A stretch of 64,000 bases of DNA from Clostridium sp. BJN0013 (GTDB lineage: Bacteria; Bacillota; Clostridia; Clostridiales; Clostridiaceae): assembly GCF_040939125.1 (NCBI RefSeq), contig NZ_CP162495.1, forward strand, positions 2,914,001 through 2,978,000. Direction: 5' to 3'. Shown here piece by piece: positions 18,081-47,091 of the stretch. Within the stretch, counting starts at the first letter, position 1, and every line of letters starts with the position of its first letter. The notes under the pieces were generated by a model. It had not been told where the DNA came from and searched no databases. It was given only the letters and a program-made list of their open reading frames with translations. The translations under genes were made by a program, and so were the position numbers.

Positions 18081-18306
18081 CTATACACACACAATCAACG
18101 TTAACTCAAAAATTGCACTTCCTTTACTTTTAAATTTTTAGTATTAAATATGTTTGTAATTAAAAATACCAACGAAACAAGCAATAATGACTTTGTGAAG
18201 GATTTTATATTTAGGTTTCTCCCCTAATAAGCAATTTTTACTCTCATCTAAATACAATCCTTGTTAAGGTTCAACAACAGGGGGTATTATCATGTGCTAT
18301 TACATA

Positions 18307-19910
18307 CTATAAAAAAGAATAGCCATCACACTAAAAATATAGTATCCTTTTAGTTGCGAAATCAAAAAGGAGGACACCTTTAGTGGAAAGCTATCTTTGA
18401 ATATTTTACCATACTCTTACACTATTGGCTACACAAAAAATGTGGAAATTACTTGAGGAAGTTTTTATAAATTTAAAAAAATGCTTTAGGAGACATGCAA
18501 CCTTTCATTGGTTTGTTGTAATAGTAATTTGTTGTAATAGTAATTGGATTTATGATTCGTTCAGATTCTTTAGGAGTTACTTCTATCATACAAGATTTAA
18601 GTATTTCAACTAATTTGTATACTATAATGATGCACTTTTTTCGTTCTAATGCATGGAATTTAAACAATTTAATAGCTGTATGGACTAAAACTGTAGCTGC
18701 TACAGCGCCAGTCTACAGACAGGATGGGATGACTGTACTCATAGGTGATGGAGTTAAGCAATCAAAAGAGGCACGCAAAATGCCTGGTGTTAAAAAGCTG
18801 CACCAGGAATCCCAAAATTCTTCAAAAGGTGAATATATATTTGGACATATGTTTGGTGCAGTGGGTGTGTTAATAGGAGACATTTCTAGGATGTTTTACG
18901 TTCCACTTTCAATGAAAATTCATGATGGTGTTAAATCTATTCGTCAGTGGAATGAATCAGATAAAAACACAGGTTCTCATATTGTGCAAATGATTGAAAA
19001 TAGCTTTGATGCAGCTAGAGTTATAGGGAAGTCTCTTTTGCTTTTAGATGCATATTTTCTATCATTGCCAGCACTCAAAAGACTTTCAGAACTTAATAAA
19101 TGTGCAGCTAACGTACTTCATATTGTTACAAAAGCTAAGATGTCTTTTGTAGCCTATACAGAACCATGTGAGTATTCAGGAACAGGCAGACCACGTAAAA
19201 AAGGCAAAATAATTAACCTTAAAGACATATTTAATGAGAAAAAAGATGAATTCATTGAAGGCACAATGATGTTATATGGTAAAGAGGAAAAGGTAAAATA
19301 TCTATGCATTGACCTGCTGTGGGGAAAAACACTTTATCAAAAATTACGTTTTGTATTGGTTACGTGTAATAGTATAAAGTCTATATTGATATCAACAAAT
19401 TTAGAATTGTCACCTGTAACTATAATAAGTTTATACAGCTACCGATTTAAGATAGAGTGTACATTCAGGGCACTTAAGCAAGCTATAGGTGGATTTAAAT
19501 ATCAATTTTGGTCCAAAGTAATGCCAAAGCTAAATAGATATGGAAAGAAAGGAGAAATTCATCCCGCTGAAAAAATAGAATGTAAAAAAACAAAGGAGTT
19601 AATTTTATCTACTTTAAAAGCTATAGAAGGCTATGTTATGTGTAGTTGTATAGCTATTGGATTGCTTCAAATTATATCCATAAAATTCTCAACTGAAATA
19701 AATAAGACTCCTTTTCGTTTCTTAAGAACAAAATCTAAGGGTGTTGTTTCAGAAACAACAGTATCATGTTTTTTGAAAAAAAATATTTTCTCACTTATTA
19801 CGAAAAACAATAAATCTACCATAAGTGAAATAATTAACGAAAAGCAGTCAGAGCCTTGCTTTAGAGATAATCGACAGGCTTGTTAAGCATATAAACTTTT
19901 GACTGTCCAG
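18307..19910 (+). mobile_element. Insertion sequence inside a CRISPR spacer
   Basis: About 1604 bp between two copies of TTACATA (18300-18306 and 19911-19917), which I read as a 7-bp target duplication. Removing the element and one copy restores a 36-bp spacer, matching its neighbours. It carries one DDE-type transposase gene, now broken. Terminal inverted repeats are not obvious: ends read CTATAAAAAAG and, reversed, CTGGACAGTC. Confidence 0.75.
18383..19886 (+). pseudogene. IS4-like DDE transposase, disrupted by a stop and a 16-bp duplication
   Basis: The natural start appears to be GTG 18383 with AAGGAGG 9 nt upstream, but codon 6 is TGA. Downstream, TTTGTTGTAATAGTAA occurs twice in tandem (18512-18527, 18528-18543); this 16-bp duplication shifts the frame. 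Removing one copy joins HWFVVIVI to GFMIRSDSLG in one frame. The 444-residue remainder has a transposase-like core: LIGDGVKQSKEARKMPGV with the first Asp, LLLDAYFLSL with a second Asp, and YRFKIECTFRALKQAIGGF with the Glu-containing YREK-like region. This is the IS4/IS701-type layout. Confidence 0.8.
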
Positions 19911-20215
19911 TTACATATATAGATTTAAATACAATCCTTGTTAAGGTTCAACTTTAAGGGCTTTTAATACTTTACCATCCACATATATTTAAATACAATC
20001 CTTGTTAAGGTTCAACATAAAATTAATAAAGCATAGAAGGGGGATTGCAAAATTTAAATACAATCCTTGTTAAGGTTCAACAATTTATCTCTTGCAAAAG
20101 AGGTCGTCGCGGTTAATTATTTAAATACAATTCTTGTTAAGGTTCAACAATTTATCTCTTGCAAAAGAGGTCGTCGCGGTTAATTATTTAAATACAATTC
20201 TTGTTAAGGTTCAAC

Positions 20216-37047: not shown

Positions 37048-38073
37048 TCATTTCCCAGCATATTGGGGATTAGGACTAAATTTATTCGTGTATATGTCTG
37101 ATGCCTTTATAGCTCCCTTTTTCAATATTCCAGTTTCTTCAGACATATCCACCCATTTTTGAATGTATTGCGGATCTATATAGTCATTTTCATCATACCA
37201 AAATGGCTCCACTTGAGAAATTTTCATATTAAACTTTTTTGCTATAATTTCATTTGCCTGCTGCTGATGAGTATTAATCCATTTATGAGTTTTTACAAGC
37301 ACTTTTACAAAACGCTTAACCGTATCTGGATGCTCTTTTATAAATTCATCACTGAATCCACGGGTAGAAGCTCCTCCTGCAGGTCCTTGCATTACTTCAT
37401 AGCTAGTAAATAGAGAGCTGACTCCTCCATCAATTTGTGCTTTTTTAATATATGGCGGATGAAGAGCGGCTATGTCAACTAAACTCTGGCTCAATGCCTG
37501 TTCCTGCTGACTAGATGGCATAATTACGAATTCTGCATTTGACTTTGGAATATTATATTTCTTAAAATATTCAAGAGCTATTATTTCAGCACAAGAATTT
37601 CTATTTGTTACTGCAATTTTAAATTTTCTATTTTTTAAATCCTCTGGAGATTTTATAGAACTTTTACTATTTACCATATAGTTCATATGAACAAATTTTT
37701 CATTATCAATCATTCCAGTAGCTACCACTTTAATCTTTGCTCCTGCCAACTGAGCAAGGGCTACATCAATTGGATGTCCATCGAATACATCATTACTTCC
37801 TGTTAACACTGCTTGAATTGCTGTACTACCTTTAAGTACTCCAGTATATTCTAGTTGTATTCCCTCTTCTTTAAAAAATCCAAGTTCATCCGCAATATCA
37901 AATTCATTAAATCCGGTCTGAGTTGCTATTTTTATAACATCAAGCTTTTTACCATCACTGGAAGTTATGGTATTTGAATTTGTCTCACTGCTTTTTGATG
38001 AACATCCTACTACACTAAAAATTATAGCTAATGATAAACTTATCATTGTAACTTTCTTTAATAATCTATTCAT
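37048..38073 (-). CDS. NrtA/SsuA/TauA-type ABC substrate-binding lipoprotein
   Basis: About 341 residues. Lipobox VVGCS near residue 25, so extracytoplasmic and lipid-anchored. The fold family binds nitrate, sulfonates, taurine, pyrimidine precursors and similar oxo- or sulfo-compounds; landmarks FNEFDIADELGFFKEEGIQL and GSTAIQAVLTG. It ends an operon that begins with two nitrogenase-like genes, so it likely delivers the substrate (or cofactor anion) of that enzyme. Start 38073 with GAGGTG 7 nt upstream. Confidence 0.85.
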   Translation of the reverse strand: MNRLLKKVTMISLSLAIIFSVVGCSSKSSETNSNTITSSDGKKLDVIKIATQTGFNEFDIADELGFFKEEGIQLEYTGVLKGSTAIQAVLTGSNDVFDGHPIDVALAQLAGAKIKVVATGMIDNEKFVHMNYMVNSKSSIKSPEDLKNRKFKIAVTNRNSCAEIIALEYFKKYNIPKSNAEFVIMPSSQQEQALSQSLVDIAALHPPYIKKAQIDGGVSSLFTSYEVMQGPAGGASTRGFSDEFIKEHPDTVKRFVKVLVKTHKWINTHQQQANEIIAKKFNMKISQVEPFWYDENDYIDPQYIQKWVDMSEETGILKKGAIKASDIYTNKFSPNPQYAGK

Positions 38074-38131
38074 ACTTCTACACCTCATTTTTAAAAATTT
38101 AAATATATATTGTTCAAATCACCAACAAATA

Positions 38132-38147
38132 TAAGAATCACTTGATA
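38132..38147 (-). repeat. Possible terminal scrap of the dispersed repeat, copy I
   Basis: Only the first 16 nt or so (sense ATCAAGTGATTCTTAT) match. It lies in the 165-bp gap between the ATPase and binding-protein genes. Too short to be certain. Confidence 0.3.
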
Positions 38148-38252
38148 ATATTTTAAATTCTATTTATACTTACAATCTTACGTTTAAAATTTCATTAATT
38201 TATTGCACTCTGAGGTATATTGTATAAATCTTTATTGGAGTCCTTTCCATCA

Positions 38253-39092
38253 TCAGCTCTCTCCATTATTCTGACTATCCTTAAGTAATTCCCATATTCT
38301 ATGTTTTAGTGTAGTAAATTCATCAGATGATTTTATGCTTCCACTTTCCCTTGGTCTTGGTATATCAATATCAATTATTTCCTTAACAGTTCCAGGATTT
38401 TTTGTCATAACAACTACTCTGTCTGACAAAAATACAGCTTCCTCTATACTGTGAGTAACAAATAATATAGTTTTATGTGTCTTTTCCCATATATGGAGCA
38501 GCTGTATATGAAGATCCTCTTTTGTTTGCTCATCTATTGCTGCAAAAGGCTCATCCATTAGCAGCACTTCCGGATCATAAGCTAATGCTCTAGCAATAGC
38601 TACCCTTTGTTTCATACCTCCTGATAATTCATAGGGATATCTGTTTTCGAAGCCCTTTAACCCTACCAACTCCAGATATTTTTTACTGATTTTCTTTCTT
38701 TTACGTTTATTGATTCTCTTAATTTCAAGTCCAAATTCTACATTTTTTTCTATACTCCTCCATGGGAAAAGTGCATATCCCTGCATGACTATACCTCTAT
38801 CTAGTGCAGGTCCATGTATTTCCTTATTGTCAATGAATATTTTTCCTGTGTTTCCTTTTATAAGACCTGCTATAATATCCAAAAATGTTGATTTTCCACA
38901 CCCACTAGGTCCAACTATAGATACAAATTCACCATTTTTTATTTTAATATTCATTCCATTTATAGCAAGTAAATCTTCTTTATTTTCTTTTTTTCCATTT
39001 TTGACACCATATTTATATCCAACATCCTCGGATACTATTTTATAATTTAATATATTATTGTTATTTTTTTTATCTATGCCTTCAACAACCAT
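38253..39092 (-). CDS. SsuB/TauB/NrtD-type ABC transporter ATPase
   Basis: 279 residues. Walker [10 protein letters not shown], signature [15 protein letters not shown], Walker [17 protein letters not shown]-loop [14 protein letters not shown]: typical of the nitrate/sulfonate/taurine importer ATPases. The first 35 residues are a charged extension. AGGAGG before the ATG; 26 nt after the permease gene. Confidence 0.92.
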
Positions 39093-39118
39093 GAATAATT
39101 CCTCCTTCTATTTTGTAT

Positions 39119-39970
39119 TTATACATTAGGTTCCTGTTTCCATTTCATAATATTTTTCTGCAGTAAAACAAGTAAATAATTCAACCCGAAGCCTATCAAT
39201 GCTATAGTTACAATTGAAGCATACATGTCGGCAACTTTGTAAGTTTCCTGAGATTGAAATATAAGAAAACCAAGTCCCGCATTAGCTCCTATCATTTCTG
39301 CTGCAACTAAAACAATTATAGCTGTAGTAGCACTTAATCTAATACCTGTAAAAATTGATGGAAATGCTCCAGGGAAAATCACCTTGTAAAAAAGAGTTAA
39401 TGGTGATGCTCCCATGGATTTTGCAGATTTGATTAAAATAGGATCTACATTTTTGACCCCTTCAATAGTACTTATAAGTATAGGCCACTGAACTCCCCAA
39501 AATATAATAGCTATTTTAGATGTTTCTCCAATACCAAATACAAGTATAAACACAGGAAATAGTGCCAGTGCTGAAGTTTGTCTGAAAATTTGCAGAAGAG
39601 GATCTATAAATCTCTCAAATTTTTTAAACCATCCGATAACAAGTCCTAGTGGAATAGCAACCAAAAGTGCCAATGCAAAACCTGCTGCTGATCTTTTAAG
39701 ACTTACAAATACATTTTCAAAAAGGGAACCACTAATTATTAATTGCCACAATGCTGCAAATACTTTGGAAAATGGCGGAAGAAAAACTGGATTAGCAATA
39801 CCGATCCTAGGTGCTGCTTCCCACAGTATTAAAAATATAATAATAGAAAATAAACTATATCCTACTCTACCAATTGTTCCAACAATTCTATCAATTATTT
39901 CTAATCCATACCTATTATCTTTTGATATATCTATTTCTCTTCTACTTTTGGTAGCATTCAATTTTATCAC
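39119..39970 (-). CDS. SsuC/TauC/NrtB-type ABC transporter permease
   Basis: 283 residues, about six membrane segments, with the EAA loop IKSAKSMGASPLTLFYKVIF followed by GAFPSIFTGIRLS, diagnostic of the nitrate/sulfonate/taurine class. Begins 18 nt after the stop of the NifK-like gene, so the importer and the nitrogenase-like enzyme form one transcription unit. Confidence 0.92.
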   Translation of the reverse strand: MIKLNATKSRREIDISKDNRYGLEIIDRIVGTIGRVGYSLFSIIIFLILWEAAPRIGIANPVFLPPFSKVFAALWQLIISGSLFENVFVSLKRSAAGFALALLVAIPLGLVIGWFKKFERFIDPLLQIFRQTSALALFPVFILVFGIGETSKIAIIFWGVQWPILISTIEGVKNVDPILIKSAKSMGASPLTLFYKVIFPGAFPSIFTGIRLSATTAIIVLVAAEMIGANAGLGFLIFQSQETYKVADMYASIVTIALIGFGLNYLLVLLQKNIMKWKQEPNV

Positions 39971-39988
39971 TCTCCATTTAGATTATAT

Positions 39989-41305
39989 CTATTGAAAATC
40001 TTGAAGTATAACAGAATAAATATCTTCTATCAACCTCATTGCCCCTTCATATCCTAGATAAGAACGGCTAAGAATCATCCTGTCACTTATAGGTGTAGAT
40101 GTTGAAAGCTGATATCCCTTTATTTCTTTTGAAATAGCCCTATCCCAACCACTTCCAAGTATTAATGGTTTAGTTCTAAAATTGCTATTTCTCAAATATT
40201 CATTTACTTTTCCTCCATCATCTGTAAATTCGATCTCTGGAACAATATCATTATAGAAACCTTTAAAATGTTGTTTTACTTGTTTTTCATATTCTTTGGG
40301 AACTCCTTCTGTTATAAACTGCTTTTTGGGCAGCAGCCCTAAATCATTTATTAAAAACTTAGATAAAGCTAAACAATAAGCACTGTCTGATATGGTTACG
40401 AAATGCTTTGGAAGTAATCTAGTTTCGAGGAGAACATCGGCAGCTCTTTCTAAATAATAAAAATATCTATCCTCCTGTCTTTCTATCTCACTTTCAACAA
40501 CATTAGCATCTATTCCTAAAAAATTTCCTACTGTTCTTAAAAACTTTCCCGTTTCCTTTGGTCCTATGGGGAGAATAGGATATTGAAAGTATTCCGTTCC
40601 AAACTTTTCTTTTAAATGTATTACATTCTCAAGCCCTAGCCAGGGTGATATAATCAGGTTATATTGTGCCTTGGGTATATTATTTAATGTATTTATTCCC
40701 TTTCCATGTCCAAAAATAATATTAGCTTTTACTCCTATTGAATTTAAAAGTTTCTCAATAACCTCAAAGTTTCCTGCCCAGAATGTATCTTGATATGGTA
40801 CAGTAGCCCACACATTAACTAATCCTTCTTCAATTTCATCCGATGGTTCTAAATATTGATCAATTATTGCATCTATTATAAGTTGGTGACCTAAAAAATT
40901 GCTGCCCTTAAATCCTCCGGTCTCGGCATATACTATAGGCTTGCCCTCTTCTCTAAATTCATCTACTATCTCTCCTACATAATCTCCTACAATATCTGAA
41001 GTACATCCAGTTAATACAACATATAAGTCTGCATCCAATACCTTAAAGGAATTTGAAATAACCTCATGCAATTTATCCGTTCCTCCAAATATCACTTCTT
41101 TTTCTCCTACATTAGTACATGGTATTGAATGACCCCCTATATAGCCGGTGCCCTGGCATCCATTCTGAAGCCCTAAAGTGGACCAGATTTTTGCTGCACA
41201 CCCAGGTCCAGCATGTATTATGGGTACTGCCCTTTCTATAGCAAGTACGGATTCATATCCTCCAAGTGCACAGACATGTCTTAATTCTTCAACCACTCCA
41301 CTCAT
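39989..41305 (-). CDS. Nitrogenase-like component 1, beta-type subunit (NifK/MarK-like)
   Basis: 438 residues, shorter than NifK (about 520) because the N-terminal extension is absent. The three cysteines that in NifK bind the P-cluster align: Cys12 (RHVCALGG), Cys36 (HAGPGCAAKIW) and Cys101 (LTGCTSDIVGDY). The rest follows the oxidoreductase/nitrogenase component 1 fold. Its ATG overlaps the stop of the alpha-type gene (TAATG). Could be NifN-, AnfK- or MarK-like by sequence; the context (SAM riboswitch, sulfonate-type importer) favours an organosulfur reductase, which is inference. Confidence 0.85.
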   Translation of the reverse strand: MSGVVEELRHVCALGGYESVLAIERAVPIIHAGPGCAAKIWSTLGLQNGCQGTGYIGGHSIPCTNVGEKEVIFGGTDKLHEVISNSFKVLDADLYVVLTGCTSDIVGDYVGEIVDEFREEGKPIVYAETGGFKGSNFLGHQLIIDAIIDQYLEPSDEIEEGLVNVWATVPYQDTFWAGNFEVIEKLLNSIGVKANIIFGHGKGINTLNNIPKAQYNLIISPWLGLENVIHLKEKFGTEYFQYPILPIGPKETGKFLRTVGNFLGIDANVVESEIERQEDRYFYYLERAADVLLETRLLPKHFVTISDSAYCLALSKFLINDLGLLPKKQFITEGVPKEYEKQVKQHFKGFYNDIVPEIEFTDDGGKVNEYLRNSNFRTKPLILGSGWDRAISKEIKGYQLSTSTPISDRMILSRSYLGYEGAMRLIEDIYSVILQDFQ

Positions 41306-42774
41306 TATTTCACCTCATTTTCAAGAAATTTAAATGTATCCTGCTTAAACCACCAGGAAGTATATGGAAGCCTTATCCTTTTGGATAAGCTCTCTGCTAA
41401 GCTGTTATTTTCCAAGGTATCTATTATGCTGTGACCAAAATCTATAATTCCCCTATATCCAAAGGCACTGTATTCATCTGATATCATTATAGATGGGATT
41501 CCCATCTTAGTTGGCCATATTGTAGTACCTGGGTGCCTGGCTATATAAAGATCCGGTTTCAATTTGTTCAACAAATTTAATATTTCGAAATTTTGAACAT
41601 CACATATGCTTATTGGGATATCTTCATCTCTCTTGGATAGTGCAATGGATGATTCCGGTATGCCTCCATGATCGTAATGCTGATCGAAATGCCAGGAAAT
41701 TCCCCATATTACCTCAATACCTAATTCACCTAATACTCTTATATAATTGTGAGAAAAACTTGGTCCCATCCCTACTATTGCTCTTTTTCCTTTCAACTTT
41801 TCTCTGATTTTTTCAAGTTCTGGTGCTATTATCTTCTTTTCATTATCTATATAATCTTTTACTTCTTTCTCTTTGCCTACAGCTTTTCCAAGTCCTCTGA
41901 GCCAATTATCCATACCTGCAATACCGTGGGGCTGAATAGACTTTACATAAGGAACACCATATTGCTGTTCTAATCCATTTCCCAAATATCCCCCTAAAGT
42001 ACCACATATGCTAATAGTAGCTGCAGCCTCCGACATTCTAGATATCTGCTCTATAGTAGCAAAAGGTACTACAAATTGAGGAATAAGCCCAAGTTTTGAT
42101 AGTATTTCAGTTATATAATCTCTAGCACTTCCATTAAAATTTATCATATTTACAAGTTTTGGACGTTTCTTTCTAGGTGGTTTCACTATACGTGTCAATA
42201 TGGCATGAAACGCTGCATCAAAACCTGAAGCCCATATTCTTGATCTAAATCCTTCGCAGAAAACAGGTACCACAGGAATCTTTATTTCTTTTTCCATTTC
42301 ATCTGTAATACTCTTAATATCGTCTCCAATAATTGCCGAAGCACAAGAAGTAGTAACAAATATAGCCTTAGGTTTAAACCTCTTATATGCTTCTTTTATA
42401 CCTTCCTTTAACTTATCTCTACCGCCAAATACAGTAGAATCCTCTGTCATATTAGTGTTTATCACATTTACATCTTTCTTTTCCCAATTTCTTATATTCT
42501 GTCCCCATTTGAAAGTAGTATTTTCCCCAATTACATCTGCAGAGCATCCAATGGCACCATGATTTACAATGGCAGCATCCAATACACGTGACAAATACCC
42601 CTGGGCACATCCAGAACTACAGTTACTAGCCTGACTAAAGCACCTTTCCTCATTTTTAAGACATCCACATTGCACTTTTTTAACAAGATCCTTAACTGTT
42701 CCACTATAACCAGTAATAGAATTAAGTCTGTTTTCCCTAGTTGCCGATTCTATTACCTTAATATTAATAGACAT
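41305..42774 (-). CDS. Nitrogenase-like component 1, alpha-type subunit (NifD/MarD-like)
   Basis: 489 residues. P-cluster-type cysteines are present: Cys56 (SSGCAQG), Cys77 (NHGAIGC) and Cys144 (TTSCASAIIGDD). The cofactor-binding cysteine of NifD (Cys275 in Azotobacter) aligns with Cys257 (ISICGTLGGYL, followed by LEQQYGVPYV). The second FeMo-co ligand, His442, does not: the matching stretch SAFGYRGIIDF has Arg441, with a His only 7 residues on. That makes a genuine N2-fixing NifD unlikely. Leads a five-gene operon; AAGGAGA precedes the ATG. Confidence 0.85.
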   Translation of the reverse strand: MSINIKVIESATRENRLNSITGYSGTVKDLVKKVQCGCLKNEERCFSQASNCSSGCAQGYLSRVLDAAIVNHGAIGCSADVIGENTTFKWGQNIRNWEKKDVNVINTNMTEDSTVFGGRDKLKEGIKEAYKRFKPKAIFVTTSCASAIIGDDIKSITDEMEKEIKIPVVPVFCEGFRSRIWASGFDAAFHAILTRIVKPPRKKRPKLVNMINFNGSARDYITEILSKLGLIPQFVVPFATIEQISRMSEAAATISICGTLGGYLGNGLEQQYGVPYVKSIQPHGIAGMDNWLRGLGKAVGKEKEVKDYIDNEKKIIAPELEKIREKLKGKRAIVGMGPSFSHNYIRVLGELGIEVIWGISWHFDQHYDHGGIPESSIALSKRDEDIPISICDVQNFEILNLLNKLKPDLYIARHPGTTIWPTKMGIPSIMISDEYSAFGYRGIIDFGHSIIDTLENNSLAESLSKRIRLPYTSWWFKQDTFKFLENEVK

Positions 42775-42827
42775 GAAAACATCTCCTTTATAAAAATTAA
42801 TTTTTACACCATTATGGAAATATATAC

Positions 42828-43036
42828 CGAAAGATACTAAATATTCAATAATATTTAGTATCCAGTATCTCTGGTAAACCCAGCCGAATTTTCTACTGCC
42901 CTAACTATTGTAGATAATATCTTTCTGTACTAAGTGTTTATTTCTTAATTCCTTAATATAGTTATAGTAAATAATAAAAAACCAGAGGCTATTAAATAAA
43001 ATTAAAATTTTATTTAAAGCCTCTGGTTTTCCAGTC
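42828..43036 (-). other. Leader between SAM riboswitch and nifD-like gene: hairpins and a coding scrap
   Basis: Three things are visible on the minus strand. A strong terminator-like hairpin, AACCAGAGGC paired with GCCTCTGGTT and followed by TTTTTATT (43032-42977). A 24-codon protein-like scrap reading ILSTIVRAVENSAGFTRDTG then Y-stop (about 42930-42858), family not recognised. A 12-bp hairpin ATACTAAATATT/AATATTTAGTAT (about 42859-42832). The scrap suggests that a gene once stood between riboswitch and nifD-like gene. Confidence 0.5.
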
Positions 43037-43043
43037 AACTAAA
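43004..43043 (-). repeat. Short direct repeat flanking the riboswitch, copy 1
   Basis: On the minus strand AGTTGACTGGAAAACCAG then AGGCTTTAAATAAAATTTT. Copy 2 lies at 43608-43647 with a single G/A difference in the first block. CTGG(A/G)AAACCAG is itself a small palindrome. The pair brackets the SAM riboswitch. Confidence 0.7.
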
Positions 43044-43076
43044 AGTTAAGTCATATGATAAGATTTTAAAAAATAA

Positions 43077-43250
43077 AGTCTCCCTCAAATAATGAGGAAG
43101 ACTACTGCTCTAAAATATAATTTTTAGCACGTTACCTTTCCTCATCTTTCAGAATTAAACCTGCAGGATTTAGCACCTTGCATGTAAACAAAACATACTG
43201 GTTGCTGAAACTTCATCGGGCCAGCCCCTCAGTTTCTCTTGATAAGAAAA
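43077..43250 (-). promoter_or_regulatory. SAM-I (S-box) riboswitch with transcription terminator
   Basis: On the minus strand: P1 5' strand TTTTCTTATC, AAGAG, then GAGGGGCTGGCCCGATGAAG, TTTCAGCAACC, GGTGCTAAATCCTGCAGG and the P1 3' strand GATGAGGAAA (43137-43146). These are the conserved SAM-I blocks. P1 can form 10 pairs. Downstream, AGTCTTCCTCA and TGAGGGAGACT form a terminator followed by TTATTTTTT (43103-43070). GATGAGGAA can instead pair with TTCCTCATT, giving the antiterminator. High SAM should therefore switch transcription off. It faces the nitrogenase-like operon, 300 bp away. Confidence 0.93.
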
Positions 43251-43421
43251 TAAATTATTGATATATAATAATTTGATTATATACCACAATAAAATCTCTG
43301 TCAACTTATTTTTACATAATTTTAAAAAATTTCTTAGTTATATATCTTTTATATTATTGATATAAATTTAGTAAAATATTAAAATACTTAGAATATGAGA
43401 ATTATATATAAAGCAGGATAT

Positions 43422-43600
43422 TCAAGTCCAGTAATTGGAACTGAAGCTATGTCTTTTAGCTCCATATATTTTTTTATCAACACCATCTTCTATCTCTAAT
43501 TGTTGTAATGTAACAGGTAATTTTAATTTATTTAATACCTCAATAAGTCCTAATATTTCTCCTTTGGCCTTTCCAGCAAAAATAGAAAAACCAAAAACTT
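43422..43600 (-). pseudogene. Remnant resembling a glycerol-dehydrogenase-type C-terminal segment
   Basis: The minus strand reads AGKAKGEILGLIEVLNKLKL then PVTLQQLEIEDGVDKKIYGA before running to a stop. The KxKLPVTLxxLxIED pattern recalls iron-type glycerol dehydrogenases, but no start and no remainder are present. Family assignment is weak. Confidence 0.3.
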
Positions 43601-43607
43601 TAAATAT

Positions 43608-43647
43608 AAATTTTATTTAAAGCCTCTGGTTTCCCAGTCAACTAAAG
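43608..43647 (-). repeat. Short direct repeat flanking the riboswitch, copy 2
   Basis: AGTTGACTGGGAAACCAG then AGGCTTTAAATAAAATTT on the minus strand, 604 bp upstream of copy 1. Downstream of it the sequence diverges into the dehydrogenase-like remnant. Confidence 0.7.
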
Positions 43648-43700
43648 TTGAATAATGTCAATAAAAAATCCCCTTTCAAAAGAAATTGTATATATAATTT

Positions 43701-44063
43701 CTAATTACATGGTTTATTAATTTTATCTATTCTGGAATAATATTTAATTAACTTTTTTAAAGCCTCATCTATAGATTGGGTTATATCAAAAGCTTCAATT
43801 CCATTTCTATTCAAAAATATAGCAGCTTCTCTACCTATTTGGCTAACCAGAACTATCCTACACCCTGAAAGATGTTTAACAATAGACAAAATTTTATCAT
43901 AGTGACTTTCTTTTCCACAGCTAAGGATGTCATCTATTTTTCTCAACTCTACAAATTCATAATCCCCGTTTTCCACTTTATATATATAAAATTGGCTTGC
44001 TTTTCTAAAATGTTCATTTACAAATTTGCCATCACTACTTGCAACTGCAACTTTATAATTCAT
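43701..44063 (-). CDS. NifX/NifB-C-type dinitrogenase iron-molybdenum cofactor domain protein
   Basis: About 120 residues of the PF02579-type fold: VAVASSDGKFVNEHFRKASQ, quoted as one 20-residue block, and CRIVLVSQIGREAAIFLNRNG, with the DGKxVxxHF motif that binds Fe-Mo cofactor precursors in NifX, NifY and the tail of NifB. ATG 44063 has GGAGGG 5 nt upstream. It directly follows the decayed NifK-like remnant, so it was probably part of a nitrogenase-like gene set and may still serve the adjacent one. Confidence 0.85.
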   Translation of the reverse strand: MNYKVAVASSDGKFVNEHFRKASQFYIYKVENGDYEFVELRKIDDILSCGKESHYDKILSIVKHLSGCRIVLVSQIGREAAIFLNRNGIEAFDITQSIDEALKKLIKYYSRIDKINKPCN

Positions 44064-44080
44064 ATATACCCTCCTATAAA

Positions 44081-44326
44081 TCAATTAAATCTTGTAAGAA
44101 CTACAGAATATATATCTTCTAAGAGTTTAAGTCCACCTGAATATCCTACATAAGGACCATTTATTATAAGACTTTCAAATACAGGCCATGAAATAGTAAT
44201 ATAATGCGCATTTATTTCCTCTGGTATTTTATCTATATTCTCAATTCCTCTTCCATATCCGAATATAGTATTGGCAATTAATCCAAGTTCTGAAACAAGT
44301 TTTTCTAATTGTCTCAAATTACCCAA
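44081..44326 (-). pseudogene. Internally deleted NifK-like gene remnant
   Basis: The 81-codon frame joins a mid-protein segment (LRQLEKLVSELGLIANTIFG, YGRGIENIDKIPEE) directly to a C-terminal segment (GPYVGYSGGLKLLEDIYSVV). Both parts align with the intact NifK-like protein of this window (IIFGHGKGINTLNNIPK and YLGYEGAMRLIEDIYSVI), but about 170 residues between them and the whole N-terminus are gone. It is a separate paralogue, not a duplicate of identical sequence. It stops 18 nt before the NifX-like start. Confidence 0.8.
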
Positions 44327-44809: not shown

Positions 44810-45811
44810 TTAACATATTCTTGGCAACATCTCTCCATCTAAAATATTTAGAATCCTCATGCCTCCAAAGGAATTTTCCATGTATACCATATGTTCTAAA
44901 TCATCAGTAAAGCTCCCTATGATACTTGCATTACCACACTGCTCTAAATTATGAAGCTTATTTAATATTTCCTCGGCCATTTCACTCTTAACTACAAACA
45001 CAACTCCTCCTTCACAAGCCATATATAGTGGATCCAATCCTAATATTTGATTTACGGCAGATACCTCTCTTTCAATGGGTATACTTTCTTCCAGGAGCTT
45101 TACACTTAAGCCTACTCTGTCTGAAATTTCATTTAATATTGTAACAAGCCCTCCCCTTGTAGGGTCTTTCATTATTTTTATAAAAGGATAGTATTCTTTA
45201 AGTGTGCTTATAATTCTATAAACTGGAGCACAATCACTTTTAATATTGCTTTTTATATCTATATTATACCTTTCAAGGGCTATAGTAGTACCATGTTCTC
45301 CTATATTCCCACTTACAATTATCTTATCTCCAGGTTCAACATTCTTTATTTTATAATTGTTTTCAATAATACCTACTCCGGAAGTATTTATAAACAATCC
45401 ATCTATGCAGCCTTTTTCAACAACTTTAGTATCCCCGGTTACAATTTTAATCTTTGAAACTTCACACTGCAGAGCCATTTCTTTAACTATTAAATCAAGA
45501 GTTTCAATTGGAAAACCTTCTTCTATTATAAATCCTGCACTTAAATATAAGGGCTTTGCCCCTGACACGGCTAAATCATTTACAGTACCACAAACTGCAA
45601 GCTTCCCAATATTCCCTCCAGAAAAAAATAGAGGTTTTACAACAAAAGAATCTGTAGTAAATGCCATTTTGCCTTGACTTACGGGAAATATAGCTGAATC
45701 CGCCCCCAAATCTAAAATAGTGTTGTTAAAATATTTGTAAAAGATACTTTCAATTAATTCATTTGTATGTTTTCCACCATGACCGTGAACTAATTTAATA
45801 GCTTCATTCAT
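44810..45811 (-). CDS. hypE: Hydrogenase maturation factor HypE
   Basis: 333 residues of the PurM/ThiL-like fold. HypE dehydrates the C-terminal S-carbamoyl cysteine delivered by HypF to a thiocyanate, the source of the cyanide ligands of the NiFe site. The required C-terminal cysteine is there: LPRIC-stop. N-terminus HGHGGKHTNELI is the family start. Overlaps hypD by 8 nt; last gene of the hydrogenase operon. Confidence 0.95.
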   Translation of the reverse strand: MNEAIKLVHGHGGKHTNELIESIFYKYFNNTILDLGADSAIFPVSQGKMAFTTDSFVVKPLFFSGGNIGKLAVCGTVNDLAVSGAKPLYLSAGFIIEEGFPIETLDLIVKEMALQCEVSKIKIVTGDTKVVEKGCIDGLFINTSGVGIIENNYKIKNVEPGDKIIVSGNIGEHGTTIALERYNIDIKSNIKSDCAPVYRIISTLKEYYPFIKIMKDPTRGGLVTILNEISDRVGLSVKLLEESIPIEREVSAVNQILGLDPLYMACEGGVVFVVKSEMAEEILNKLHNLEQCGNASIIGSFTDDLEHMVYMENSFGGMRILNILDGEMLPRIC

Positions 45812-46880
45812 TATTTTTTATACCTCCATATTTATAATAGATAGAACAAGACCCTTCTGAAGACACCATACAGGGCCCAACAGGAGACTCTGGAATACAT
45901 TCTCCCCCAAAAAACTTACAATCATAAGGAACCTTTTTCCCTAATATAATTTCACCGCATATACAATCACTTTTATTTTTTTCTTCTATTGTCAATTTGA
46001 ATTTATTTAAAGCATCAAATTCTTCATATTTTCTATTTAAATACAAACCCGATTTTTCAATTTTGCCAATACCTCTCCACATACAGCCACTTTGAAAAAA
46101 ACATTCTTTAATAATCCTCCTGGCAAGTAAATTCCCATTTGACGTTACACAGGTTCTATATAAATTTTCAAACTTTTTTTCCCATCTACAATTTTGTTTG
46201 ATTAAAAAATATATTGAAGATATAATATCTAAGGCCTCAAAGCCAGATACTACAGAAGCAATATTATAATTTTCCTTAATAAATTTGAAGTAGTCAGCAC
46301 CTGTTATAACTGCCACATGCCCCGGACATATAATTCCTTGAATTTTACAATTTTCATCCTTTAATATCTTATGTAAAACTGGTTTCATAACTTTTAAATT
46401 GCTCAAAACAGAAAAATTACTAATATTATTTTCTTTTGCCTTTTTTATAGTGAGTCCAATTAATGGAGCAGTAGTTTCAAAACCAACTGCTAGGAAAACT
46501 ACCTCAAAACTTTTATTTTCTTCTGCGATTTTAAGTGCATCTAAAGGAGAATATACTATATTGATTTTCTTTCCTTTTTCTCTTTGTTCTATCAAATTTT
46601 CTTTTGTTCCCCAAACTTTCATCAGATCGCCAAAGGTTGCCAATATAATATTACCTCTGTTTAAAAGTTCAATGGCCGCATCTATATAACCTTCTGATGT
46701 AACACAAACTGGGCATCCTGGCCCCGATACTAAATTTACCTTTGGATAAAGTAATTTCCTTATGCCCATTTTTACTATACTTTGAGTATGAGTACCACAT
46801 ATCTCCATTATGGTGAAGTGCTCTACATTACTGTTTTTAATTTTATTAATTAAATTAATTAGAATCTCATTTTTATTCAT
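45804..46880 (-). CDS. hypD: Hydrogenase maturation factor HypD
   Basis: About 358 residues. HypD is the Fe-S scaffold where Fe(CN)2CO is assembled with HypC. Motifs: FTIMEICGTHTQ, SGPGCPVCVT and CGEIILGKKVPYDCKFFG, with the C-terminal cysteines for the 4Fe-4S cluster. Start set at 46880, where the ATG overlaps the end of hypC by 8 nt with GAGG upstream; the longer frame lies inside hypC. Confidence 0.95.
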   Translation of the reverse strand: MNKNEILINLINKIKNSNVEHFTIMEICGTHTQSIVKMGIRKLLYPKVNLVSGPGCPVCVTSEGYIDAAIELLNRGNIILATFGDLMKVWGTKENLIEQREKGKKINIVYSPLDALKIAEENKSFEVVFLAVGFETTAPLIGLTIKKAKENNISNFSVLSNLKVMKPVLHKILKDENCKIQGIICPGHVAVITGADYFKFIKENYNIASVVSGFEALDIISSIYFLIKQNCRWEKKFENLYRTCVTSNGNLLARRIIKECFFQSGCMWRGIGKIEKSGLYLNRKYEEFDALNKFKLTIEEKNKSDCICGEIILGKKVPYDCKFFGGECIPESPVGPCMVSSEGSCSIYYKYGGIKNNE

Positions 46881-47091
46881 TATCCAGTTCCTCTTGAAAT
46901 ACTTTTTGTAAGTAACGAAAATATTCCCTATCAATCTTCTCTATTCCAAAACCTGCATGTATTAAAATATAATCTTTTATTTTAGGATTTTCTATAAGTT
47001 CAATATCTACATTTTTTTCTATACCCATAATATCCACTTTAGCTAAATTTCCATGAATAGATTTTATTATGCCTGGAACTGCAAGACACAT
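46873..47091 (-). CDS. hypC: Hydrogenase maturation chaperone HypC
   Basis: 72 residues. Starts MCLAVPG, with the essential Cys2 that holds the iron group during transfer to the large subunit. Overlaps hypD and follows hypF by one base, so dosage with HypD is coupled. Confidence 0.95.
   Translation of the reverse strand: MCLAVPGIIKSIHGNLAKVDIMGIEKNVDIELIENPKIKDYILIHAGFGIEKIDREYFRYLQKVFQEELDNE

Follow-up and report, generated by a model that had tools for sequence, protein, structure and literature searches.

A SAM-I-preceded operon of Clostridium sp. BJN0013 encoding a candidate nitrogenase-like C-S bond reductase and an importer

Introduction

What does a nitrogenase-like enzyme do when its genes stand behind a SAM-I riboswitch and in front of a sulfonate-type importer? 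The question is raised by an operon in a 64,000-nucleotide stretch of the Clostridium sp. BJN0013 genome (NZ_CP162495.1, positions 2,914,001 to 2,978,000), hereafter the window. One enzyme known to use nitrogenase-type clusters for breaking C-S bonds has been characterised structurally: Mar, the methylthio-alkane reductase (MAR). Isr, which by its sequence is without nitrogenase-type clusters, is likely a second nitrogenase-like C-S cleaver. Literature searches that paired SAM riboswitches with nitrogenase-like genes listed only version 3 of preprint PMC10418091, which contains both 'SAM riboswitch' and 'nitrogenase-like'; version 4 is without the word riboswitch.

Results

Gene order of the operon

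Coordinates are window positions unless marked as genome positions, and the operon and its leader lie entirely on the minus strand. The genes, with a cofactor-related neighbour, are the following:

43701..44084, minus strand: NifX-like protein of 127 amino acids, possible cofactor carrier (TIGR02663, E 5e-16, below cut-off)
41305..42774, minus strand: D gene, MAR-like nitrogenase component 1 alpha subunit of 489 amino acids (sequence search, residues, tree)
39989..41305, minus strand: K gene, MAR-like nitrogenase component 1 beta subunit of 438 amino acids (sequence search, residues)
39119..39970, minus strand: ABC importer permease, SsuC/TauC class (NCBIfam; 98% identical in the relative G127)
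38253..39092, minus strand: ABC importer ATPase, SsuB/TauB class (NCBIfam; 95% identical in G127)
37048..38088, minus strand: substrate-binding lipoprotein of the SsuA/NMT1 class, a member of the MAR-linked subfamily that carries H105, H134-M135, C166 and H210

As the original prediction had it, the two component 1 genes are coupled by a TAATG overlap (direct reading, GAAATAATGAG), and the importer genes, which follow K after 18 nt (39971-39988), are of the nitrate/sulfonate/taurine class, though permease, ATPase and binding protein all score under the curated cut-offs of their best NCBIfam models. Values of dN/dS were 0.07-0.19 across the five operon genes and 0.12 for the NifX-like gene against G127. 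The absence of nifH and nifB, claimed earlier, held within the window, where we found no NifH homologue and no full-length NifB homologue; the NifX-like gene is an addition to that picture and, lying just upstream of the leader, places one cofactor-related gene inside the window.

A complete SAM-I leader precedes the D gene

43276..43304, minus strand: promoter ahead of the riboswitch, TTGACA-17 nt-TATAAT (direct reading)
43139..43248, minus strand: SAM-I (S-box) riboswitch aptamer (RF00162, 85.5 bits)
43062..43138, minus strand: expression platform with intrinsic terminator (stem 43077-43103 and U run)
42976..43027, minus strand: second terminator-like hairpin, lying before D and after the riboswitch and shared with the relatives G127 and G126
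42834..42861, minus strand: third hairpin, which G127 and G126 lack

The aptamer match covers the whole model (positions 1-108) at nearly twice the gathering score of 44.4 bits and, together with the predicted folds, bears out the earlier reading of a complete aptamer with terminator and antiterminator. In these folds the terminator stem (43103-43093 pairing with 43087-43077, then the U run) reaches -16.6 kcal/mol, and an antiterminator built from the P1 3' strand (43139-43146) and the terminator 5' arm, predicted to exclude the terminator, reaches -16.9 kcal/mol. The leader thus resembles other SAM-I riboswitches in its canonical aptamer and transcription-termination platform, but differs from the usual targets in that the downstream gene is a nitrogenase-like reductase. 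Chance placement is unlikely: for a single operon, the expected number of same-strand SAM-I matches in the 400 nt upstream is about 0.001. When the leaders of G127 and G126 were aligned, they did not show the consensus promoter. The second terminator-like hairpin could hold D low despite an open SAM-I riboswitch.

Upstream of this leader lie three remnants:

44081..44326, minus strand: remnant (81 amino acids) of K from a second MAR-like pair, which is whole in G127
43578..43693, minus strand: what is left of an older SAM-I leader, with its terminator hairpins but without the aptamer
43434..43613, minus strand: remnant of a glycerol-dehydrogenase-like (gldA) gene

The K remnant is identical to the upstream K of G127 at 88% over 49 amino acids and at 55% over 75, and the leader remnant is 88% identical to the G127 leader over 122 nt. 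The gldA remnant matched a gene of the relative G148 (49% over 61 amino acids, E 2e-11) and gave no match to the C. tyrobutyricum gene. For the hairpin repeat that surrounds the riboswitch, the best reading from its sequence is that it derives from the older leader; a mobile element was rejected, its core occurring in only two copies in the genome (at most 2 mismatches), as was an unknown riboswitch, Rfam returning only sub-threshold microRNA models there.

The pair is MAR-like, with a changed pocket

In a PDB sequence search D scored 372 bits with MarD against 150 with the best NifD, and K scored 432 bits with MarK against 62 with the best NifK. Compared with MarBHDK of Rhodospirillum rubrum (PDB 9FMG; PMC12552129), to which D and K are 40% and 46% identical, the pair keeps the ligands of the P-cluster and the Fe8S9C cluster, namely all six P-cluster cysteines (MarD 66, 91 and 158; MarK 32, 56 and 121) and Cys270 (MarD numbering), as well as the MAR hallmark Arg428-His429 and Trp195, Phe199 and His375. 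It differs in that Cys73, Gln74 and His194 of MarD are replaced in D by Gly, Tyr and Ile, the last being Ile180 of D, so that the full active-site set is incomplete; among the D homologues compared, His194 is unique to MarD-proper.

The tree agrees with these residues. MAR-like D proteins form a clade of 65 rows (support 100/99), all of which (65/65) carry nine D positions, the three P-cluster cysteines, Cys270, Arg428-His429, His375, Trp195 and Phe199. Window D belongs to a 31-row clade (100/100) apart from MarD-proper (10 rows, 100/98), and window-type D proteins make up a 12-row subclade (100/98). The K tree gave high support only to a six-row set around window K and did not recover the 12-row clade of D. 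Next to the MAR-like clade stands a single long-branched E-like row from the same genome (66 rows, 100/99, with a long-branch flag). The final D tree includes added rows from C. tyrobutyricum, C. acidisoli and Paenibacillus that resemble canonical NifD/NifE by place and residues, not by HMM typing; it leaves out L034_D and the divergent L033_D and has no named NfaD, DPOR/COR or CfbD rows. L033_D, 28-33% identical to MAR-like rows, had no firm tree placement, lay outside the MAR-like clade and failed at three of the nine positions. In an earlier D tree, the rows labelled NifD/NifE were the genome's own VnfD and an E-like protein that has diverged strongly. The placement that had been named as telling against the prediction, inside NifEN or N2-fixing NifDK, did not occur.

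Other nitrogenase-like families were set aside as follows. A nitrogenase (NifDK, VnfDK or AnfDK) was rejected because Gln191 and His195 of NifD are replaced by Trp and Phe, the alignment has no counterpart of the NifD histidine that we take to be His442, and D is not placed with NifD. A NifEN maturase was rejected on a NifE score of 169 bits against a cut-off of 505 and on the position of D outside the NifE-like tree rows, and DPOR, COR and CfbD on similarity only (best BchB 35.2 bits, MarD 372). Isr was discarded since window D, unlike IsrD, has all three D-subunit P-cluster cysteines and the Cys270/275 equivalent; the N2-fixing group IV-A enzyme Nfa was discarded for want of a His442 equivalent in the alignment, the Cys275 equivalent being present.

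Partner genes lie behind another SAM-I riboswitch

The search for marB and marH elsewhere in the genome, suggested with the original prediction, found both 1.9 Mb outside the window (marB at genome position 1080554, marH at 1087601), in another SAM-I-preceded operon and beside a true MarDK orthologue (71/76% identity, all checked pocket residues retained). Apart from the V-nitrogenase cluster, the genome has no strong NifH homologue other than MarH. As for MarBHDK, NifH-like and NifB-like partners are available, and there is a tie to methionine genes; unlike MarBHDK, the window operon is without an H or B gene, has its own importer and has SAM-I in front.

SAM-I precedes 4/4 operons of this genome with MAR-like or related pairs, counting the divergent L033 operon. 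The genome also encodes V- and Fe-nitrogenases, and no SAM-I precedes either cluster. Across seven genomes of the genus (this one and six relatives searched for SAM-I), a same-strand SAM-I lies at most 10 kb upstream of 29 of the 40 listed D homologues, about 1.2 being expected, and 11 have none within 10 kb. Other genes behind SAM-I in this genome serve sulfate import, resemble sulfite reductase or encode a glycyl radical enzyme of the sulfonate type. Because of these, SAM-I alone does not point to methionine salvage, a reading dropped once the regulon had been read, and methanethiol and sulfite are both possible products.

Neighbours of the pair in relatives suggest the same partners. A single same-strand run in G134 holds SAM-I, marH, marB, window-type D, K and binding proteins; D, K, importer genes and marH lie together in C. 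tyrobutyricum, as do binding protein, marH, D and K in Paenibacillus YN15; and metY-like and cysK-like genes adjoin the pair in G147 and G148. The orthologous D of G126 is broken, with no K remaining. Searches of the surrounding stretches found no SAM-I around the window-type pair in C. acidisoli, G147, G148, G185, Paenibacillus YN15 or the second G134 copy, which makes the control lineage-specific. A whole-genome search also gave further pairs in Paenibacillus YN15.

The importer belongs to a MAR-linked subfamily

The binding protein falls short of the SsuA subfamily cut-off (TIGR01728, 101.4 against 163.5 bits) and belongs to a subfamily sharing His, His-Met, Cys and His residues. Strong matches to it (E 1e-80 or less) numbered 39, in 16 of the 206 genomes searched; all 16 genomes carry D homologues, and 26/39 matches lie on the same strand at most 10 kb from one. 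The association has exceptions on both sides: a Treponema MAR-like island has a binding protein without the motif, and locus L117 has a binding protein with the motif and no MAR-like pair nearby. The binding protein beside the genome's sulfonate-type glycyl radical enzyme is 21% identical to the window binding protein and without the motif. Of the genome's other MAR-like or related operons, one carries a MetNIQ-like importer and one is without an importer.

Discussion

These data support a sulfur rather than a nitrogen role, on the basis of sequence, cluster ligands, tree, relatives' neighbours and the position of marB and marH behind SAM-I. Of the prediction that the operon imports and reduces an organosulfur compound when SAM is low, the sulfur role thus stands, while a methylthio-alkane substrate does not follow from these data, since the pair is no MarDK orthologue, its pocket differs and the SAM-I regulon is broader. 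We think it fairly probable that the operon encodes the DK component of a MAR-like C-S bond reductase with a dedicated importer, under SAM-I control and acting on an imported organosulfur substrate.

In S-box riboswitches, low SAM lets the antiterminator form and transcription proceed; the leader would act in this way on the window operon. The importer would take up an organosulfur compound that probably carries a charge and does not diffuse freely. MarB, from its distant operon, would make the Fe8S9C-type cluster, which NifX-like proteins may carry, and MarH would feed electrons with ATP hydrolysis, as relatives with marH or marB beside the pair suggest. DK, with ligands in its sequence for a P-cluster and an Fe8S9C-type cluster, would cleave a C-S bond to give methanethiol or another reduced sulfur species, which MetY or CysK could convert to methionine or cysteine. 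As the pocket is unlike that of MarDK, the substrate is probably other than dimethyl sulfide or methylthioethanol.

Among the alternatives, it is unlikely that the enzyme is a sulfonate reductase releasing sulfite in the manner of isethionate reductase, although the architecture matches that of IsrBHDK and SsuCAB in Rhodobacter capsulatus, a nitrogenase-like DK with an SsuCAB-class importer for sulfur assimilation, in the accessible part of PMC11423573, and a sulfite-reductase-like gene lies behind SAM-I in this genome. However, IsrD has one of the three P-cluster cysteines and no Cys275 equivalent, all of which window D has, and the unlike binding protein by the glycyl radical enzyme also speaks against it. 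Isr differs further in that IsrB is closest to BciD and that the accessible part of the same source mentions no riboswitch. An ordinary methylthio-alkane reductase, using the same volatile methyl sulfides as MarDK beside an importer that is a bystander or serves another purpose, would account for the identity to R. rubrum MarDK, the retained ligands and Trp195, Phe199, His375, Arg428 and His429, and the marH or marB neighbours in relatives. We regard it as unlikely, given that the genome already has a MarDK orthologue with its checked pocket residues intact, that Cys73, Gln74 and His194 are changed in the window clade, and that purifying selection acts on the importer, which is linked to MAR-like genes.

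The ABC system might instead supply the enzyme with a metal or a cofactor precursor rather than the substrate. Such a coupling was suggested for nitrogenase-like loci in PMC3464626, and the three conserved histidines and one cysteine of MAR-linked binding proteins could bind metal. This is nevertheless very improbable, as among the other MAR-like or related operons of this genome one has a MetNIQ-like importer and another has none. The SsuA/NMT1 fold family, moreover, binds small organic anions or heterocycles. Hardly credible is an N2-fixing group IV enzyme of the Nfa type, as proposed for Endomicrobium proavitum: the pair is similar to group IV, whose enzymes share a MarH-like reductase (PMC9147875), but the missing His442 counterpart, the Trp and Phe at Gln191 and His195, the SAM-I control and the genome's V- and Fe-nitrogenases all argue against it. 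The group IV Nfl/Nfa pairs of heliobacteria, Paenibacillus and Endomicrobium are like the present case in their several paralogous DK pairs per genome and MarH-like reductases, whereas E. proavitum NfaDK, unlike window D, is predicted to keep N2 ligands (PMC9147875).

Returning to an imported organosulfur substrate, we tentatively propose, without calling it probable, that the MAR-like scaffold is a modular C-S cleavage platform, in which one SAM-I-controlled MarB and MarH would serve several DKs with different pockets, most with their own importer; the window pair would reduce an imported charged organosulfur compound, and His194 would separate volatile methyl sulfides from other substrates. 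We know of no such reduction of an imported charged organosulfur compound by nitrogenase-like enzymes of the MAR-like clade. With the same ligands, a changed pocket, a private importer and a sulfur-sensing switch, substrate determinants become testable by paired assays in one organism. The subject is relevant to the anaerobic origins of three compounds, methanethiol, methane and ethylene, and MAR-like genes should not be counted as nitrogen fixation genes. If the proposal is true, the range of sulfur foods usable by nitrogenase-like enzymes would be wider.

Structure of the operon and its leader

The operon lies on the minus strand. The original prediction described there (window 37048..43250) a SAM-I leader, two genes of a nitrogenase-like component 1 (here D and K, for the alpha and beta subunits), and a permease, an ATPase and a binding protein, and all its structural statements were borne out when checked, including the coupling of D to K by a TAATG overlap and the permease start 18 nt past K, with the ATPase and the binding protein next. 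The aptamer is the following:

Window 43248-43139, minus strand: SAM-I aptamer (RF00162, 85.5 bits against a gathering score of 44.4)

A consensus promoter lies upstream of the riboswitch, and the predicted energies of terminator (-16.6 kcal/mol) and antiterminator (-16.9 kcal/mol) are nearly equal, with the antiterminator using the 3' strand of P1 in the pairing prediction. Two features had escaped the original prediction: the aptamer has a NifX-like gene immediately upstream, and a second terminator-like hairpin separates it from D. At window 42976-43041, a CTGG-AAAA-CCAG element precedes the second hairpin and an alternative pairing could occur; its counterpart in two related genomes, G127 and G126, is CTGG-GAAA-CCAG.

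G127 carries the same operon behind SAM-I (95-98% identity), and dN/dS between the two ranged from 0.07 to 0.19; G126 has retained SAM-I, with D broken and no K left. In the window, the NifX-like gene is followed by the terminator part of a G127-type leader devoid of its aptamer, then by a gldA-like fragment, and then by the present promoter and SAM-I. Of the K gene in the upstream pair, complete in G127, the window retains an 81-aa remnant. This arrangement likely arose by recombination of two SAM-I leaders. The hydrogenase maturation genes hypE and hypD (window 44810-46934) lie directly upstream of the MAR-like remnant, and CRISPR repeats (six RF01316 matches) are found at window 18246-20215.

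The D/K pair belongs to the methylthio-alkane reductase-like proteins

Among solved structures, window D matched best the MarD of Rhodospirillum rubrum methylthio-alkane reductase (MAR; MarBHDK), with 372 bits (best NifD, 150), and window K the MarK of the same species, with 432 bits (best NifK, 62). Compared with the residues given in PMC12552129 (R. rubrum MarD numbering for D), the window pair retains the six P-cluster cysteines, Cys270, Arg428-His429, His375, Trp195 and Phe199, and D has Cys73 altered to Gly, Gln74 to Tyr and His194 to Ile. Nine retained D positions were identical in 60 of the 65 rows of a first alignment, whose other five rows were VnfD, AnfD, an E-like protein and the D proteins of two further loci, L033 and L034. 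Since five MAR-like rows added later have the same nine residues, these are kept in 65/65 rows of the MAR-like clade. His194 occurs in 10 of these 65, all within the R. rubrum MarD clade.

Tree placement, proposed earlier as a check on the pair, put window D inside the MAR-like clade. In the later D tree (78 rows, omitting L033_D and L034_D), the 65 MAR-like rows formed one clade (100/99). The 10 MarD-proper rows grouped together (100/98), as did the 12 window-type rows (100/98), the latter nested in a clade of 31 rows (100/100). The window clade was also recovered in the earlier D tree (99/99), in which the fork joining its 60 MAR-like rows reached only 89/76. In the K tree, window K and its nearest orthologues grouped together (6 rows, 100/99), and the larger clade of D was not among the well-supported sets. 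The deep part of the trees is limited by long-branched rows and by a row set without named NfaD, IsrD and Bch sequences.

Nitrogenase-family genes in the same genome

The complete 4.10-Mb genome of the strain (window at 2914001-2978000) has 22 PF00148 matches and four MAR-like pairs, the window pair included. Two others lie at 1.0846-1.0915 Mb, the first being the MarDK orthologue (71/76% identity), and one lies at 3.301-3.304 Mb, preceded by a MetNIQ-like importer. The fifth pair, at 3.657-3.660 Mb, is divergent and follows NifX-like and cysK genes; its D retains the cluster cysteines but not Trp195, Phe199 or Arg428. NifB is represented by two matches over the cut-off and NifH by two strong matches, at 424 and 401 bits, with five more at 44 or less, one NifH/NifB set being in the V-nitrogenase cluster and the other in the MAR cluster. 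Homologues of marH and marB, sought outside the window, were thus found in the MAR cluster, marB directly behind SAM-I.

The V-nitrogenase cluster (genome 1822927-1831522) encodes VnfD at 932 bits against a cut-off of 823, VnfG and VnfK slightly below theirs, and an E-like protein far below the NifE cut-off; all components of the Fe-only AnfDGK (genome 542816-546127) are above cut-off. No canonical Mo-NifDK was seen among the 22 PF00148 matches; it is generally stated that organisms with alternative nitrogenases have a Mo-nitrogenase as well. A 194-aa PF00148 fragment (genome 849645-850229) may be what is left of a nitrogenase-family gene that was lost. The nitrogenase-like pair of L034 (genome 2672676-2675343) adjoins an importer named FecBCD-like by eye; its D has the Cys91 equivalent only and its K the full three, as reported for the cysteines of IsrDK.

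SAM-I marks the MAR-like operons and other sulfur genes

SAM-I precedes all four operons holding the five pairs, with approximately 170 to 370 nt separating it from the first listed ORF; none was found before the V-nitrogenase, Fe-nitrogenase and L034 clusters of this genome. Across this and six more genomes of the genus, 29 of the 40 listed D homologues had a same-strand SAM-I within 10 kb upstream, against about 1.2 expected at random places, clustered genes not being independent. Elsewhere in the genome SAM-I precedes metY, metA, a sulfate-binding protein gene, a ThiF-like followed by a sulfite-reductase-like gene, and, named by eye, metK, suf and sulfate-activation genes; a transposase-like ORF separates another SAM-I, about 1 kb upstream, from the gene of a (2S)-3-sulfopropanediol-dehydratase-type glycyl radical enzyme that has an SsuCBA importer to itself. 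Because SAM-I also precedes sulfate, sulfite-reductase-like and glycyl-radical-enzyme genes, it indicates a general need for sulfur and does not discriminate between a thiol and a sulfite product.

In one locus (genome 1742683-1754000), each strand carries a SAM-I. One stands ahead of genes that are ThiF-like, sulfite-reductase-like and, by eye, JAMM-like; the other is upstream of the glycyl radical enzyme, which scores 1575 bits against a cut-off of 1000 and is accompanied by an activase and SsuCBA. The SAM-I at genome 3301088-3301195 precedes suf-like Fe-S assembly genes (by eye; ORF 3299890-3300636) directly behind a MAR-like pair.

Relatives of the window operon

A D homologue at E 1e-60 was present in 41 of the 206 genomes of the family, with up to seven candidates scored per genome and L033-type homologues included, and a scan of named genomes yielded four loci, in C. 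tyrobutyricum, C. acidisoli, Paenibacillus sp. YN15 and a Bacillota MAG. One same-strand run in G134 comprises SAM-I, marH, marB, window-type D, K, two binding proteins, permease, ATPase and more MAR-like pairs. The order is SAM-I, two genes, D, K, importer genes and marH in C. tyrobutyricum, and binding protein, marH, D and K in Paenibacillus YN15; in G147 and G148, metY-like, cysK-like and short NifB-like genes adjoin the pair. Of such neighbours, metY was typed in C. tyrobutyricum and G134, the short NifB in G148, and cysK in the genome of the strain itself. No SAM-I was found near the window-type pair in the stretches examined of C. acidisoli, G147, G148, Paenibacillus YN15 and the second G134 copy, nor in G185, whose contig starts 1 kb upstream. 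Plasmid-borne MAR-like islands occur in other phyla, on Treponema saccharophilum pTS2 and a Ca. Chlorohelix plasmid, with NifX-like, NifH, radical SAM or NifB, cysK or metY, and ABC genes.

A binding protein linked to MAR-like loci

The window binding protein is SsuA/NMT1-like, below cut-off; among solved structures it is closest to a putative exported protein and to a taurine-binding protein. H105, H134-M135, C166 and H210 are common to 15 binding proteins chosen by similarity from MAR-like loci. This motif was absent in four other SsuA-like proteins checked: two from the region of the own-genome glycyl radical enzyme (one of them adjacent to it), a third beside metY genes, and the C. tyrobutyricum counterpart of this third protein, situated about 2 kb from a broken MAR-like pair that is on the opposite strand. 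It was present in the SAM-I-preceded SsuA of L117, with no MAR-like gene nearby; this SsuABC-like importer (genome 1177484-1178815) is followed by a gene that by eye is QueG-like.

With the 15-row alignment as query and up to nine candidates scored per genome, 39 of the matches listed reached E ≤1e-80, in 16 of the 206 genomes. All 16 have D homologues (4e-13 by a hypergeometric calculation that ignores relatedness). Of the 39 matches, 26 lie within 10 kb of a listed D homologue, every one of them on the same strand. Four weaker matches (1e-32 to 1e-36), one of them in G062, a genome without D, were excluded from the count. The link is seen in clostridia and Paenibacillus only, since the binding protein of the Treponema plasmid island is without the motif.

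Proposed working and relation to known systems

Set beside the sequence anatomy, ligands, co-occurrence and selection documented for the window operon, a route can be proposed in which transcription would terminate at the leader in a SAM-dependent manner, MarB and MarH would serve window D/K in trans, D/K would cleave a C-S bond of the imported compound, and the sulfur would pass on via MetY or CysK.

Mar is a characterised enzyme (PMC12552129). Mutants, together with growth upon transfer into another species, support Isr as a nitrogenase-like enzyme that acts with SsuCAB on isethionate (PMC11423573). Several Nfl pairs are carried by heliobacteria (PMC9147875). In 2012, nitrogenase-like genes carrying the Cys275 equivalent were described as neighbours of O-acetylhomoserine sulfhydrylase or cysteine synthase, and others as neighbours of ABC transporters (PMC3464626). 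Version 4 of PMC10418091 reports that mlp clusters have MarHDK-like genes nearby, together with metY and cysK. None of the titles and abstracts found deals with SAM-I control of MAR-like operons, a statement that does not cover version 3 of PMC10418091, which contains both 'SAM riboswitch' and 'nitrogenase-like'. The kind of system is already known; what appears to be new is a subfamily with a changed pocket, a linked importer and SAM-I in front.
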